Source: a virus
Reading direction: 5' to 3' (one strand)
DNA length: 23,112 nucleotides
IMG/VR virus record: IMGVR_UViG_3300017788_001699
Span: 1 to 23,112 of that record
Below, piece by piece: positions 17,441 to 22,725 of this stretch (position 1 is its first letter; each line of letters opens with the position of its first letter). The position numbers and the translations under genes were made by a program. The notes below the pieces were generated by a model. It was not told the origin of the DNA. It did no database searches and was given only the letters and a program-made list of their open reading frames with translations.

Positions 17441-17632
17441 ATGAAGAAATACATTTTATTCTTGATTGCTATTGCAACATTTGCAATGGTGTCCTGTGGT
17501 TCAGGGTCAACCACAACTGAAACAACTGACTCTGCGGCGGTAGAAGTTGATACAACATCATCTGTTGTGGATTCAACTAATGTCGAAGCACCGGCTGGTG
17601 GTGGTTCTGCTACAGAACAACCAATTAAGTAA
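17441..17632 (+). CDS. Small secreted lipoprotein
   Basis: 63 residues starting at the ATG at 17441, chosen because it begins a proper signal peptide; an upstream in-frame extension crosses the terminator and is rejected. MKKYILFLIAIATFAMVSC is a type-II signal sequence with lipobox MVSC and lipidated Cys19, followed by GSGS. The mature 45-residue part is low-complexity Thr/Ser/Val/Glu/Gly (TTTETTDSAAVEVDTTSS) and probably unstructured. It resembles the many tiny lipoproteins of Bacteroidota in style, but I recognise no family. It has its own promoter and terminator, typical of a moron gene. A role in blocking superinfection or altering the cell surface is a reasonable guess, not shown. Confidence 0.8.
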   Translation: MKKYILFLIAIATFAMVSCGSGSTTTETTDSAAVEVDTTSSVVDSTNVEAPAGGGSATEQPIK

Positions 17633-17637
17633 AATAT

Positions 17638-17664
17638 GGGCCGGTACAACACCGGCCCTCTTTT
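17638..17664 (+). terminator. Terminator after the lipoprotein gene
   Basis: GGGCCGGT (17638-17645), loop ACAAC, ACCGGCCC (17651-17658), then TCTTTT. A perfect GC-rich stem in AT-rich surroundings, starting 6 bases after the stop. The kinase gene begins only 12 bases beyond it, with no obvious promoter in between. Confidence 0.93.
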
Positions 17665-17676
17665 AAATTATTTAAA

Positions 17677-18096
17677 ATGGAATATGTTGGTGATTTAATA
17701 TTATTAAGAGGTTTACCAGGTAGTGGTAAATCAACTTTAGGTGAAGTTATTCTACATACATATGGATTGAACAATACCAATAACGTTTTATCCGCAGATG
17801 ATTTTTTTGTCGATGAAAAAGGTAATTATAATTTTGACGTTACAAAATTAAAAGAGGCTCATAATAGTTGTCAATTGAAATGTGCGGAAAGAATGAAACT
17901 ACAGTTATCAAAAATTGTGGTTGCAAATACTTTTACACAAGATTGGGAAATGCAATCTTACTTTGATATGGCCGAGAGATATCATTATAGAGTTCATTCA
18001 ATTGTTGTAGAAAATAGACACGATGGTAAAAATATCCATGATGTACCCGAAGATAAACTTCAAATAATGAAAGATAGGTTCAACATTAAATTGTGA
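17677..18096 (+). CDS. P-loop polynucleotide-kinase-like protein
   Basis: A 139-residue single-domain P-loop kinase of the PNK/N4BP2-like type. Walker A is LLRGLPGSGKST (residues 9-20). LSADDFF (38-44) carries the acids that in this family bind the acceptor 5'-OH or magnesium. IVVANTFTQDWEM (80-92) and VENRHDGKNIHDVPEDKL match the rest of the family pattern, including a basic lid-like segment. There is no phosphatase domain, unlike T4 Pnkp (301 residues). The RNA ligase gene follows 48 bases later in the same operon, so the likely role is phosphorylating 5'-OH RNA ends before sealing. Substrate specificity is inferred from context. Confidence 0.85.
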   Translation: MEYVGDLILLRGLPGSGKSTLGEVILHTYGLNNTNNVLSADDFFVDEKGNYNFDVTKLKEAHNSCQLKCAERMKLQLSKIVVANTFTQDWEMQSYFDMAERYHYRVHSIVVENRHDGKNIHDVPEDKLQIMKDRFNIKL

Positions 18097-18144
18097 TGAG
18101 CAAATTTTTTACTTCTTTTTATAACGCAACTCATTTACAAAAAA

Positions 18145-19194
18145 ATGGTAACAGAGTTTTTAAATACATTAGAAAAATATTATCAAGATGGTTTGTTACT
18201 AAAACAAACCCACCCAAACTATGATTTAACTATTTGGAATTATTCACCAAAAGTTCAATATGATAGATTGTGGGATGATATTACAATACAATGTAGGGGG
18301 TTAGTTACCAATTCAGAAGGTAAAATTATTGCTAGACCATTTAAAAAATTCTTTAACTACGAGGAACACAAACCAGAAGACATTCCAAATGAAGAATTTG
18401 TTGTCTATGAAAAATTAGATGGTTCACTAGGTATACTTTTTAATTATAAAGATGAATGGATTCTTGCAACAAGAGGTTCATTCACATCACCACAATCAAT
18501 TAAAGGAAAAGAAATTCTTGATAGACATGACATAAGTGCGTGGAGAAAAGACAACACTTATTTGTTTGAAATTATTTATCCTGAAAATAGAATTGTTGTT
18601 GATTATGGTAATGAAGAGAAGTTGGTTGTCATTGGTGGTATTCATACAGATACAGGTGAAGAAATACCCGATAGTAGTTTATTTTGGACACAAGATTCTG
18701 GATTTGAAGTTGTAACAACATACAAGACTTGGGGTGAGGGTTATGATTTACTAAAAGAAGAAATCAGTAAAGATAAAGAAGGTTACGTGATTCGTTTTAA
18801 GAACGGATTTCGCATGAAAGTTAAGGGAGAAGAGTACAAACGATTACATCGAATCTTAACTAATATATCTAATAGAGATATTTGGGAATACCTTAAAGAG
18901 GGGAAACCATTTGATGAAATATTAGATAAAGTTCCTGATGAATTTTATAATTGGGTAAAAGATACTGCACGTGATTTAACTGTTAAATTTGAAGACATTG
19001 ATGATGAATATAACAATATTTTTAATTCAATATTTTCATTAATAGAAACAAAAAAAGAATTTGCAGAAAAGGCTAAACAATATCCACATTCTTCATTGTT
19101 ATTTGCAATGTACGATGGAAAACAAACACATAAAATAATTTGGAAACTATTATACCCAAATTATTCTAAACCATTTAAAAAGGACGATGAATAA
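18145..19194 (+). CDS. T4 Rnl1-type RNA ligase
   Basis: A 349-residue ATP-dependent RNA ligase. Upstream of the active site is CRGLVTNSEGKIIARPFKKF, the Rnl1-family lead-in. Motif I is EKLDGSL with nucleophile Lys90. Motif Ia region is TRGSFTS (109-115), motif III is LFEIIYP (140-146), motif IV is KEGYVIRF (211-218), and motif V is MKVKGEEY with Lys225 and Lys227. The C-terminal third is helical and family-specific, as in Rnl1 (374 residues). It should join 5'-phosphate and 3'-OH RNA ends, such as cleaved tRNA anticodon loops. It follows the kinase and overlaps the SGNH-like gene by 8 bases. The ATG at 18145 is the correct start because the conserved region begins shortly after. Confidence 0.93.
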   Translation: MVTEFLNTLEKYYQDGLLLKQTHPNYDLTIWNYSPKVQYDRLWDDITIQCRGLVTNSEGKIIARPFKKFFNYEEHKPEDIPNEEFVVYEKLDGSLGILFNYKDEWILATRGSFTSPQSIKGKEILDRHDISAWRKDNTYLFEIIYPENRIVVDYGNEEKLVVIGGIHTDTGEEIPDSSLFWTQDSGFEVVTTYKTWGEGYDLLKEEISKDKEGYVIRFKNGFRMKVKGEEYKRLHRILTNISNRDIWEYLKEGKPFDEILDKVPDEFYNWVKDTARDLTVKFEDIDDEYNNIFNSIFSLIETKKEFAEKAKQYPHSSLLFAMYDGKQTHKIIWKLLYPNYSKPFKKDDE

Positions 19195-19807
19195 TTTGTA
19201 CGTATGTGGGGACAGTTTTGTTGATTGGGATTTACCTGAAATACATTGGGTAGATTATTTGTCTAATCATTTTAATGTTATAAAATTAGGTAAATATGGT
19301 TCCGACAATCATTCCATCATATATCAAACTGGTTTGATTCCTAATTATTTAGAAGGAGATAGAATTATTATTGTGTTTACTGCACCCGGTAGATTTCCAA
19401 GGAGATATTTTGGTGAGAGGGAAATTAATCAGGATGTAAAATACATATCATGGGAATGGTATAAAAATAAAGAATTCGCGAAACAACTTATGGAATTACG
19501 AATTTTAGAAACAGAAAGATGGTTAAACGGTGAAAGAGATTCAGAAATTAAGTTTTTAAAAAAACTTAAATTATTTTATGGTGATTTTGAACCTGTTTTT
19601 GTGACATGGAACGAAGACTTTTATAAAATGACAAGTGATTTTGTAGAATTAATAAATGTAACATCTATATCTGATGAAGGTGGTGACAAAAATGATTGGC
19701 ATCCAGGTTGGAGAGGTTGTTATGAGTTTTATAAAAAACTACATCAATTATTACATATAAAAGAGAATGTTGTAAGTTATGTTGATAAAATTGATAAACT
19801 ACTATGA
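19187..19807 (+). CDS. SGNH-hydrolase-like protein in the RNA-repair operon
   Basis: 206 residues with an SGNH/GDSL fold pattern. Block I is YVCGDSFVDW with Ser10. GKYGSDNHSI supplies the Gly/Asn oxyanion residues (about 38-41). The terminal NDWHPGWRGCYEFYKKL provides Asp170 and His172 of the catalytic DxxH-type site, although here Asp and His are separated by a single residue. IIIVFTAPGRF is the central strand. No signal peptide is present, so it acts in the cytoplasm. SGNH enzymes remove acyl or other ester groups. Its place between ligase and oxygenase, overlapping both neighbours, suggests that it edits an end group or a modification linked to the repair reaction, but the substrate is unknown. 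Confidence 0.75.
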   Translation: MNNLYVCGDSFVDWDLPEIHWVDYLSNHFNVIKLGKYGSDNHSIIYQTGLIPNYLEGDRIIIVFTAPGRFPRRYFGEREINQDVKYISWEWYKNKEFAKQLMELRILETERWLNGERDSEIKFLKKLKLFYGDFEPVFVTWNEDFYKMTSDFVELINVTSISDEGGDKNDWHPGWRGCYEFYKKLHQLLHIKENVVSYVDKIDKLL

Positions 19808-20322
19808 GGTTATCTAACGAAGAAATAAATTTTTTACTAAACGAATTATCTAATTCAACCTTAATGGATGAGGATGAGATAAAGTATATAATGAAAGCAC
19901 ACCCACAACTATATTACACCTTAGATGGAAAAAGAGAAGAAGGGGTATCATTATTAACAGAAAAAAGTTACATTTATAGTTTAAGTAATAAAAATTTAAA
20001 AAAATTTTTATCAGACAAATTCAACGAAGATGTGAATAATGTTTATTCTATACATAAACTAATTTATGGTGTTGGTGGTGTTGCTAAAAGACACAGGGAT
20101 AGATTTACCACACACAAGACAGTAAGTATTATTTTATCTGATAAATTTAAGGGTGGTGATATGTATGTAAATGATGAATTTGTAGAGATGAATTCTTTAG
20201 GGGATTATGTAATATTTGATGGGGCGAAAGATGTACATGAAGTAAAAGAAATAACCGATGGTAAAAGGGAAGTACTAATAATATGGTTTTCAAAAAAACC
20301 GGCAAAATTTAATTTAATATAA
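19804..20322 (+). CDS. 2-oxoglutarate/Fe(II)-dependent oxygenase
   Basis: A 172-residue dioxygenase of the prolyl-4-hydroxylase-like superfamily. The metal triad is His97 and Asp99 (KRHRDRF) with distal His145 (DVHEV). Arg155 (GKREVLIIWF) is ten residues later, correctly placed to bind 2-oxoglutarate. Between them, VSIILSDKFKGGDMYV and LGDYVIFDG form the expected jelly-roll strands. The N-terminal 85 residues are helical and may bind substrate. Related enzymes are frequent in T4-like marine phages and hydroxylate proteins, nucleic acids or small molecules; the target cannot be assigned here. It overlaps the SGNH gene by ATGA and touches the cREC gene by TAATG, so it is part of the same translational unit. 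Confidence 0.87.
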   Translation: MRLSNEEINFLLNELSNSTLMDEDEIKYIMKAHPQLYYTLDGKREEGVSLLTEKSYIYSLSNKNLKKFLSDKFNEDVNNVYSIHKLIYGVGGVAKRHRDRFTTHKTVSIILSDKFKGGDMYVNDEFVEMNSLGDYVIFDGAKDVHEVKEITDGKREVLIIWFSKKPAKFNLI

Positions 20323-20804
20323 TGGAAACACAAAAAAAGAGACTTTATTTAGATGATGTTAGAACACCGACAAACGAAGATTGGATAATTGCACGTGATT
20401 ATGATGAATTTGTAAAACAAGTTAATTTATATGGTTTGGAGTCATTTGATGTGATTTCTTTAGATCATGATTTAGGTGAAGGTGCAATGGTTGAGTATTA
20501 CACAAATGTAAAAAACAACTTTACATTAGATTATAAAAACATTGAGGAAAAAACTGGTATGGATTGTTGTAGATTTTTAGTTAGTTTGAGTATGACTAAA
20601 AACATACCACTTCCACAAATATATGTTCACTCCGCAAACCCAATTGGTAGTGCAAATATGATGGGATATATAAACAATTATTTAATGAATTGTCATCTAC
20701 CACAAACCTGTATAAGAGTAACAATAGAACATACAATACATGAGAGTCATCTTATTTCACCCGAATTAAGAAAGGCTAAATGGGATAGAACTATAAAAAA
20801 ATAA
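20322..20804 (+). CDS. Cyclic-phosphate-processing receiver (cREC) protein
   Basis: 160 residues matching the cREC family, a receiver-like fold proposed to process 2',3'-cyclic phosphate ends in RNA repair. Signature motifs in order: LYLDDVRTP (Asp11, Asp12, Arg14), ISLDHDLGEG (Asp48, His49, Asp50), TGMDCCRFLV and IYVHSANPIGSANMMGYI (His103, Asn106, Met113). This is not an ordinary response regulator, because the DHDLG and HSANP motifs are diagnostic. About 25 extra residues (53-78) sit between DHDLG and TGMD. It is the last gene of the operon with kinase and RNA ligase, where it would remove the 3'-end cyclic phosphate that the phosphatase-less kinase cannot. Family membership is confident; the activity is predicted. 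Confidence 0.87.
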   Translation: METQKKRLYLDDVRTPTNEDWIIARDYDEFVKQVNLYGLESFDVISLDHDLGEGAMVEYYTNVKNNFTLDYKNIEEKTGMDCCRFLVSLSMTKNIPLPQIYVHSANPIGSANMMGYINNYLMNCHLPQTCIRVTIEHTIHESHLISPELRKAKWDRTIKK

Positions 20805-20902: not shown

Positions 20903-21220
20903 ATGCCAAGAACTAAAATTTTTAAGGAACTCGTCTTCAAAAAGAAGTACAAGTCCTACCACGAATTCCACAACGAAAACAAAGAAAAAATTTACAAATC
21001 AATAGTTGAATTATTTTCTGAATTTCAAAGAGTTAGAAACAAAACCTTATCTATTACAATAAGCGCTAAAATTGAAAATATTGATTGGACTACGGAGCTG
21101 CTTTTCAAAGAAAATGAAGTTGACATTTTGAAAAAAGATTTGATGGGTTATTTTGAAGACATTGAAGATTATGAGACTTGTTCTACAATAATTTCTTTAT
21201 CAAATGACTTGACAAAATGA
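20903..21220 (+). CDS. Hypothetical 105-aa protein
   Basis: Not recognised. The first 25 residues are strongly basic (MPRTKIFKELVFKKKYKSYH). Then comes a helix (KEKIYKSIVELFSEFQRVRN), a beta-like segment (TLSITISAKIENIDWTTEL) and an acidic helical tail (YFEDIEDYETCSTIISLSND). There is no signal peptide or membrane helix. It has its own consensus promoter and ends before a strong terminator, so it is expressed separately from the RNA-repair operon. Size, basic head and strong promoter fit an early host-takeover protein, but nothing specific supports that. Confidence 0.75.
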   Translation: MPRTKIFKELVFKKKYKSYHEFHNENKEKIYKSIVELFSEFQRVRNKTLSITISAKIENIDWTTELLFKENEVDILKKDLMGYFEDIEDYETCSTIISLSNDLTK

Positions 21221-21250: not shown

Positions 21251-21311
21251 ATCTATCGAAAGGTACTTTTATTTATTTTGTCCCCCCCTCTGTTCTCGGA
21301 GGGGGTTTTTT
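21243..21311 (+). ncRNA. Candidate second small RNA or 3' UTR
   Basis: About 70 non-coding bases ending in a terminator. It shares with the 17305-17409 candidate the order ATAAGTAA, CGAAAG, C-rich/G-rich terminator, and a TTGAC box upstream. It may simply be the 3' UTR of the 105-aa gene. Confidence 0.22.
21284..21311 (+). terminator. Terminator after the 105-aa gene
   Basis: CCCCCTC (21284-21290), loop of 8, GAGGGGG (21299-21305), then TTTTTT. The T-run overlaps the stop codon of the convergent gene (21312-21310). No T-run follows on the minus strand, so it serves the plus strand. Confidence 0.9.
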
Positions 21312-22725
21312 ATAATATCAATCTCGACCCGATTAAAAAGTTATGTAAAACCGGTATACCTTTAGTTGTGTTTACGTTTGCTTTATAATTAAAACCAAAA
21401 CCAAATCTTTTACTGATTTTATAGTCAAAACTACTACCAATTAAAAATCCTAAATTCCTATTTACATTTGTGTATCCACTACTTGGATCAAAAGATATCG
21501 GGGATGTCATGATAAAAACCTGTGGTGATAAAGATAATTTTTTTGAATACTGATACGGCTTTGTCCAAAAAGCAACAAACGATGATGATAAATTAAAATT
21601 TCTTTTATCTTCAATACCTTTTGTTAGTAAACCAATAGAACCAACGTTGAATCCATATGTTCCATATTTAATGTGTGGTTTTACATACGTGTAAGATGTC
21701 AAAAGCATCCAAGCACCTTTTAAATAACCAACCGAAGCACCATAGGAATGTATACTATTTAATTTCCCCTCTTCAAATTTCATTTTGGTATAGTTTGATG
21801 AAACAGCATATTGGTCTAATGTTGACCAAATCATTGCATTTGCTCCATATGACACATCCCCCGCCATAGATGATTTACTAACACCCATAGATAATATTGC
21901 ACTATACCTACCATCGAGACTTTGTGCTGTTGTTAAATCTGATGCTAACAACAATGGATTTAAATTTTGTTGTTTCTTTTTATCCTCTTTTTTCTCATCT
22001 TTCTTTTCTTCCTTTTTTTCTTCTTTAGATTCTTCCTTTTTCTCCTCCTTTTTTTCTTCTTTACTTTCTGATTTACTTTCCTCTTTCTTTTCCTCAGATT
22101 TACTTTCAGATTTTGACTCAGATTTATTTTCAGATTTTGATTCGCTACTTCCTCCACTTTTGCTTTCTGAAGAAGAACTACTTGATGAGGAACCACTTGA
22201 TGAGGAACTATTACCCGTTGTTGAACCCGATGACGAACTTGTGGCGGAACCTGCAGATGAACTAGCGGCTGAACCTGTAGATGAACTAGCGGCTGAACCT
22301 GCAGATGAACTAGCGGCTGAGGATGCAGATGAACTAGCGGCTGAGGATGCAGATGAACTTGCGGCGGCACTTGCAGCGGATGATGCGGCGGACGACGCCG
22401 CTTGTGACGCCGCTTGTTGTGTTGCCTGTTGTGTGGCTTGTTGTACTGCTTGTTGAACTACCGGATTAGTTGCACACGATAAATTGGCATATGTGTTATA
22501 TACACTTAATAACCATGTTTGCATTGCCCCACTTTGTACCTCGATAGGTGTGAAAACCCTTATTTGATTATAAAATGAAACAACTGCATTACCATTAACA
22601 TAATTTATTGTTGCAACTTTGGTTTCACCAGTACATTTATCAACAAAGGTTTGTGTAATAACTTGTCCATTCACATCTATGGCAAACATTACTAGTAAAA
22701 ATAAAACACCAAACCATTTTTTCAT
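21310..22725 (-). CDS. Exported protein with Ala/Ser and Ser/Glu/Lys tracts and a beta-barrel-like C-terminus
   Basis: 471 residues. A signal peptide (MKKWFGVLFLLVMFAIDVNG) probably ends at Gly20|Gln21. Residues 21-88 form a small folded region with two Cys. Then come a Gln/Ala segment (89-110), an Ala/Ser tract (105-185), and a Ser/Glu then Lys/Glu tract (185-250). The last 220 residues alternate polar and aromatic beta strands (ISKRFGFGFNYKANV, SSFVAFWTKPYQYSK) and end in LIGSRLIL, suggesting an outer-membrane barrel. Part of the Ala/Ser tract is a 24-bp tandem repeat. I recognise no family. The gene follows another barrel-like gene by 3 bases. Phage receptor masking, surface display or host-derived cargo are possible roles. 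Confidence 0.8.
   Translation of the reverse strand: MKKWFGVLFLLVMFAIDVNGQVITQTFVDKCTGETKVATINYVNGNAVVSFYNQIRVFTPIEVQSGAMQTWLLSVYNTYANLSCATNPVVQQAVQQATQQATQQAASQAASSAASSAASAAASSSASSAASSSASSAASSSAGSAASSSTGSAASSSAGSATSSSSGSTTGNSSSSSGSSSSSSSSESKSGGSSESKSENKSESKSESKSEEKKEESKSESKEEKKEEKKEESKEEKKEEKKDEKKEDKKKQQNLNPLLLASDLTTAQSLDGRYSAILSMGVSKSSMAGDVSYGANAMIWSTLDQYAVSSNYTKMKFEEGKLNSIHSYGASVGYLKGAWMLLTSYTYVKPHIKYGTYGFNVGSIGLLTKGIEDKRNFNLSSSFVAFWTKPYQYSKKLSLSPQVFIMTSPISFDPSSGYTNVNRNLGFLIGSSFDYKISKRFGFGFNYKANVNTTKGIPVLHNFLIGSRLIL
22229..22372 (-). repeat. 24-bp tandem repeat, six units
   Basis: Six contiguous 24-bp units start at 22229, 22253, 22277, 22301, 22325 and 22349. The consensus on the plus strand begins GCAGATGAACTAGCGGCTGA with a variable last 4 bases. 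The middle four are nearly identical and the outer two diverged. Each encodes eight Ala/Ser/Gly/Thr residues of the exported protein. Unit number is likely to vary by slippage. Confidence 0.9.

Follow-up and report, generated by a model that had tools for sequence, protein, structure and literature searches.

Five intact open reading frames at 17677-20804, encoding a kinase, an RNA ligase, an SGNH-like protein, a 2OG-Fe(II) oxygenase and cREC (a cyclic-phosphate-processing Receiver-like protein), raise the question of whether they form a single functional operon for RNA repair, as the original prediction proposed. They lie in a virus record of 23,112 bases (the window), which comes from a T4-like phage that infects aquatic bacteria. 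Packaging and head genes of T4-like type (terminase, portal, protease and major head protein) occupy the minus strand of the window, and the repair unit is on the plus strand, preceded by genes for Hsp20 and a Clp-type ATPase. Judged from the nearest isolates, which are Flavobacterium and Tenacibaculum phages, the host is probably a member of the Bacteroidota. Our answer, to which we assign a probability of about two in three, is that the kinase, the Rnl1-type ligase, cREC and a further gene at 20903-21220 constitute an RNA end-healing-and-sealing operon of a T4-like phage, into which the SGNH and 2OG genes were inserted once. The gene content, motifs and linkage behind this reading, the confinement of the insertion to one clade and the purifying selection are direct observations.

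Reading of the sequence confirmed the five genes with their coordinates and overlaps (Table 1). The ligase and SGNH genes overlap by 8 bp (ATGAATAA), the SGNH and 2OG genes by 4 bp (ATGA), and the 2OG and cREC genes by 1 bp (TAATG); the kinase and ligase are spaced by 48 bp, and a terminator-like site is absent from that gap. Pairwise dN/dS values of 0.035-0.19 for all genes of the locus indicate purifying selection. The hairpin 5' of the kinase is the probable upstream border of the unit. Downstream, the unit extends past cREC to the gene at 20903-21220 and up to the second hairpin, so that the extent first proposed was right in its genes and overlaps but missed this conserved gene. No tRNA genes were found within the window. 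Outside these borders, a small lipoprotein-like gene (17441-17632) lies 5' of the kinase and is kept in 24 of 36 cREC clusters (defined below), and the minus strand at 21310-22725 encodes a Ser/Ala-rich, secreted-looking protein of 471 aa that has an equivalent position in most relatives.

Table 1. Features of the repair locus; coordinates are those of the window.
Feature	Coordinates	Strand	Length	Basis or remark
Terminator-like hairpin	17638..17658	both		just 5' of kinase; consensus scan and sequence
P-loop polynucleotide-kinase-like protein	17677..18096	+	139 aa	PF13671 (E 4e-11); phrog_2071 (4e-36)
43-codon ORF	18096..18227	+	43 codons	starts in kinase stop (TGATG), overlaps ligase start; by-eye comparison, weak
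T4 Rnl1-type RNA ligase	18145..19194	+	349 aa	PF09511 (E 4e-18); phrog_562 (E 1e-72)
Divergent SGNH-like protein	19187..19807	+	206 aa	motifs; profile alignment with GDSL-like family
2OG-Fe(II) oxygenase, prolyl-hydroxylase type	19804..20322	+	172 aa	PF13640 (E 4e-5); phrog_2297 (3e-12)
cREC	20322..20804	+	160 aa	PF20274 (E 2e-21), over cut-off
Conserved protein, no family	20903..21220	+	105 aa	55 distinct homologues
Terminator-like hairpin	21284..21305	+		closes unit; consensus scan

Four of the five original family assignments were good, and the SGNH protein is a divergent member identified by motif and profile only. The kinase matches phrog_505 over its kinase half alone, and Pfam and PHROG profile searches found no HAD phosphatase domain; as predicted, it is a kinase without the phosphatase domain of T4 Pnkp, in which a HAD 3'-phosphatase is fused to the kinase. 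The ligase matches the T4 Rnl1 structure 2c5u (E 7e-14); its nucleotidyl Lys lies in a KLDG sequence at residues 90-93, which corresponds to motif I (KxDG), and its EGYV at 212 aligns with 2c5u as motif IV. As for the C-terminal tRNA-specificity domain, the phrog_562 profile aligns with residues 14-346 of 349 and the pairwise alignment with 2c5u ends at 279. The cREC protein bears a C-terminal extension of ~40 aa and matches the Receiver-like profile with its two-Asp active site; the motifs LDD, DHDLG and HSAN are invariant or nearly so among 23 sequences, and a search of the PDB by sequence gave no significant match and no solved relative. The 2OG protein scored 2 bits below the curated cut-off of PF13640, but the family assignment is good because the metal and cosubstrate residues are intact (H97-x-D99, the distal H145 and the 2OG-binding R155).

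The SGNH protein had no match in Pfam or PHROG and no significant match by sequence in the PDB. Its motifs GDSF (8-11), GSDN (38-41) and DWHPG (170-174) were aligned by hhalign with those of a GDSL-like family from phages, at a probability of 96%. With respect to blocks I, II, III and V, the Ser, Gly and His are present, and TAPGR stands where the block III Asn is not evident. An AlphaFold model was of low confidence (pLDDT 51) and was discarded, and no cellular homologue was confirmed in a search of one genome per species.

Relatives of the ligase, cREC, SGNH and 2OG proteins were taken from IMG/VR, as contigs that are metagenomic fragments, and their gene orders were compared. Grouping at 85% identity the cREC proteins that had 3 kb or more of upstream sequence gave 36 clusters. 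Kinase and ligase were both present in 24 of the 36, and 23 had the gene at 20903-21220 nearby as well. Among 69 distinct cRECs, 43 were directly preceded by the ligase; in 11 of the 36 clusters, no ligase was near cREC. Linkage of Rnl1, cREC and kinase had been described before, with healing and sealing of RNA ends as its predicted role (PMC7824862, PMC9503650). The RNA-repair interpretation is thus supported for these three, which are linked elsewhere, but not for the SGNH and 2OG genes, which lie outside the conserved core; a conserved five-gene unit was rejected on the neighbourhood counts.

The gene at 20903-21220 is a further core gene and a previously unrecognised part of the repair operon. 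Its predicted fold is confident (pLDDT 89) and has no significant structural match; a Rai1-like fold was considered, with Rai1 giving the best PDB rows, but Z values of 6.3 or less and a Foldseek E of 0.18 at best are below trust. A different small gene, encoding 80 aa, lies between the kinase and the ligase in 11 of the 36 clusters of relatives, and the 43-codon ORF of the window, which by eye resembles its N-terminus (MSxF..SF), is possibly a remnant of it.

The SGNH and 2OG genes occur inside the operon in only four distinct sequences (the window, L004, L006 and L191/L192). In the cREC tree, these carriers group as a single clade (support 99/90), and the SGNH tree splits by genomic context (support 100/99), with the four operon carriers again a clade; monophyly in both trees argues for one gain followed by inheritance under purifying selection. 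Elsewhere, SGNH resides in a separate dense cassette, mostly with the same 2OG gene directly 3' and the ends overlapping. The pairing is not absolute, since another gene follows SGNH in L226/L227, L231 and L232. Neighbours in this home cassette include more 2OG oxygenases, a second SGNH-like family, a radical SAM protein (E 2e-4, below the cut-off) and proteins that on visual inspection alone resemble sulfotransferases. A tryptophan halogenase (E 1e-94) is present in some of the loci, and the cassette may encode a modification pathway. Two such cassettes, L167:4324-12612 and L186:378-7130, each hold several 2OG oxygenases, radical SAM and SGNH-like proteins, the former also the tryptophan halogenase and the latter a conserved 46-aa peptide. 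One 217-kb contig carries both an operon without the pair (L013) and, ~190 kb away, a 70% relative of SGNH (L227). The most likely interpretation is that SGNH-2OG is a passenger pair that moved in with a single jump from elsewhere in the genomes of such viruses.

Other inserts were found at the same junction. Between ligase and cREC, L018 and L051 carry a different SGNH-like protein (F115), and L109 and L114 a GIY-YIG/NUMOD1 endonuclease (L109:6221-6994); the ligase itself is interrupted by endonuclease-like ORFs at L065:3033-5358. The variety of inserts indicates that the ligase/cREC junction behaves as an insertion hotspot. F115 was considered as direct kin of the window SGNH and rejected, there being no detectable relation except via family F13. 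In L006 (3367-3520), the ligase core seems to be missing and the first ~27 ligase residues are joined in frame to SGNH; identity to the window shifts there from 94% to 80%, which fits recombination and misassembly equally.

One could argue instead that all five genes are one repair unit, in which SGNH would strip damaged RNA or tRNA of an acyl group or a similar adduct and a base modification would be removed or added by the 2OG enzyme, so that a cut, modified tRNA could be resealed. The stop/start overlaps are preserved in the carriers, and both added genes, under the purifying selection described above, were retained across ~20-30% protein divergence. SGNH-like genes have also entered or flanked the operon more than once (in the window clade, as F115, and as F13 before the kinase), and this repeated gain could reflect a functional link rather than chance. 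However, some relatives have many such genes (one 336-kb contig gave 21 matches) and others none, and where they are so numerous, chance entry is likely. The pair is confined to a single clade, most relatives have the operon without it, and most SGNH relatives lie away from the operon in a cassette that indicates another pathway. We therefore consider a five-gene unit unlikely. Its extension, in which SGNH-2OG and the recurrent SGNH-like genes would add chemical reversal (adduct removal, then oxidation) for cut, modified tRNAs and the gene at 20903-21220, given the weak resemblance of its fold to Rai1, would act on 5' ends by trimming or inspecting them, is very unlikely.

The operon might also act on phage RNA or nucleotide signals rather than on host-cleaved tRNA, with cREC degrading an immune cyclic nucleotide or ADP-ribose and the kinase and ligase working on phage transcripts. 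Published predictions do assign to cREC the processing of ADP-ribose or cyclic nucleotide signals, and the clusters in which cREC has no nearby ligase agree with this, but its tight coupling to Rnl1 and the polynucleotide-kinase-like protein in most relatives, and the assignment of the same domain to RNA repair in the literature, make such a role rather improbable. That the kinase, ligase and cREC are adjacent merely through gene crowding, with no joint function, is highly improbable: phage accessory regions do pack many kinds of small genes, but here order and coupling are kept over diverse relatives, and the three co-locate in distant Streptomyces phages.

For the end-healing-and-sealing operon, we infer the following substrates, reactions and order of steps, with a host defence as the target. 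The kinase would phosphorylate the RNA 5' end, cREC would open the cyclic phosphate, a phosphatase from elsewhere in the genome (HAD_SAK or calcineurin-like in the relatives) would take off the remaining phosphate, and the ligase would seal the RNA. A putative counter-defence against host anticodon nucleases is plausible. Opening of cyclic phosphates is the reaction predicted for cREC (PMC7824862, PMC9503650), which is described as experimentally uncharacterised (PMC9503650); our open-access literature search found no demonstrated activity for any cREC.

The proposal that cREC supplies the missing phosphatase proved too simple. In Streptomyces phages, cREC neighbours a kinase that bears a HAD_PNKP phosphatase, which points to cREC as a complement to a phosphatase and not a substitute for one. 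Other phosphatases are encoded elsewhere in the relatives: stand-alone HAD_SAK enzymes in 8 of 15 large contigs, calcineurin-like phosphatases in 13 of 14 large relatives (12 over the cut-off), and PNK3P, as a partial match, in one of 14. Calcineurin-like phosphoesterases are often beside cREC in ligase-less loci (e.g. L074, L076, L079, L083 and L063); the 15 large contigs yielded no 2H phosphoesterase. Given a kinase without phosphatase, no 2H enzyme and common calcineurin-like and HAD_SAK proteins, cREC together with a separate phosphatase is the economical reading.

In jumbo and V5-like phages, the cREC neighbourhoods (PMC7824862; PMC9503650, section 3.7.3) share cREC, a T4-like RNA ligase and a nucleotide kinase with the window, and sometimes include a calcineurin-like phosphoesterase. 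Compared with them, the window operon is without sirtuin, MazG and Nudix genes (a sirtuin was found in only one of 15 large relatives) and adds the gene at 20903-21220 and the SGNH-2OG insert; SGNH is not mentioned in the jumbo-phage survey. The name of cREC, its predicted reaction and its linkage to RNA ligase and kinase were thus known, whereas the compact operon in this phage group, the extra core gene and the insert are new as far as the open-access literature shows. The 5' kinase and a ligase that matches the Rnl1 family over almost all of its length (via phrog_562) are in common with the Pnkp/Rnl1 tRNA repair of phage T4, but in the window the phosphatase-less kinase gene is adjacent to the ligase gene and cREC is added. 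Bacterial Pnkp-Rnl-Hen1 (PMC4411300) shares the kinase/phosphatase/ligase logic of end healing and sealing; the window, by comparison, has no Hen1 methyltransferase, and its ligase is of the Rnl1 family. A compact kinase-ligase-cREC unit that is conserved repeatedly and has no fused phosphatase offers a good test bed for the role of cREC, and the ligase/cREC junction illustrates passenger uptake by phage repair operons. In Samistivirus (Streptomyces phages Braelyn and Paradiddles), cREC, Rnl1 and polynucleotide kinase lie within ~5 kb, as in the window, but with looser, non-contiguous spacing, HAD_PNKP on the kinase, and a region rich in tRNA genes and tmRNA. The Samistivirus cREC genes (L239:2195-2500 and L240:2259-2582; PF20274, ~1e-21), near Rnl1, PNKP, tRNAs and tmRNA, are unlabelled.
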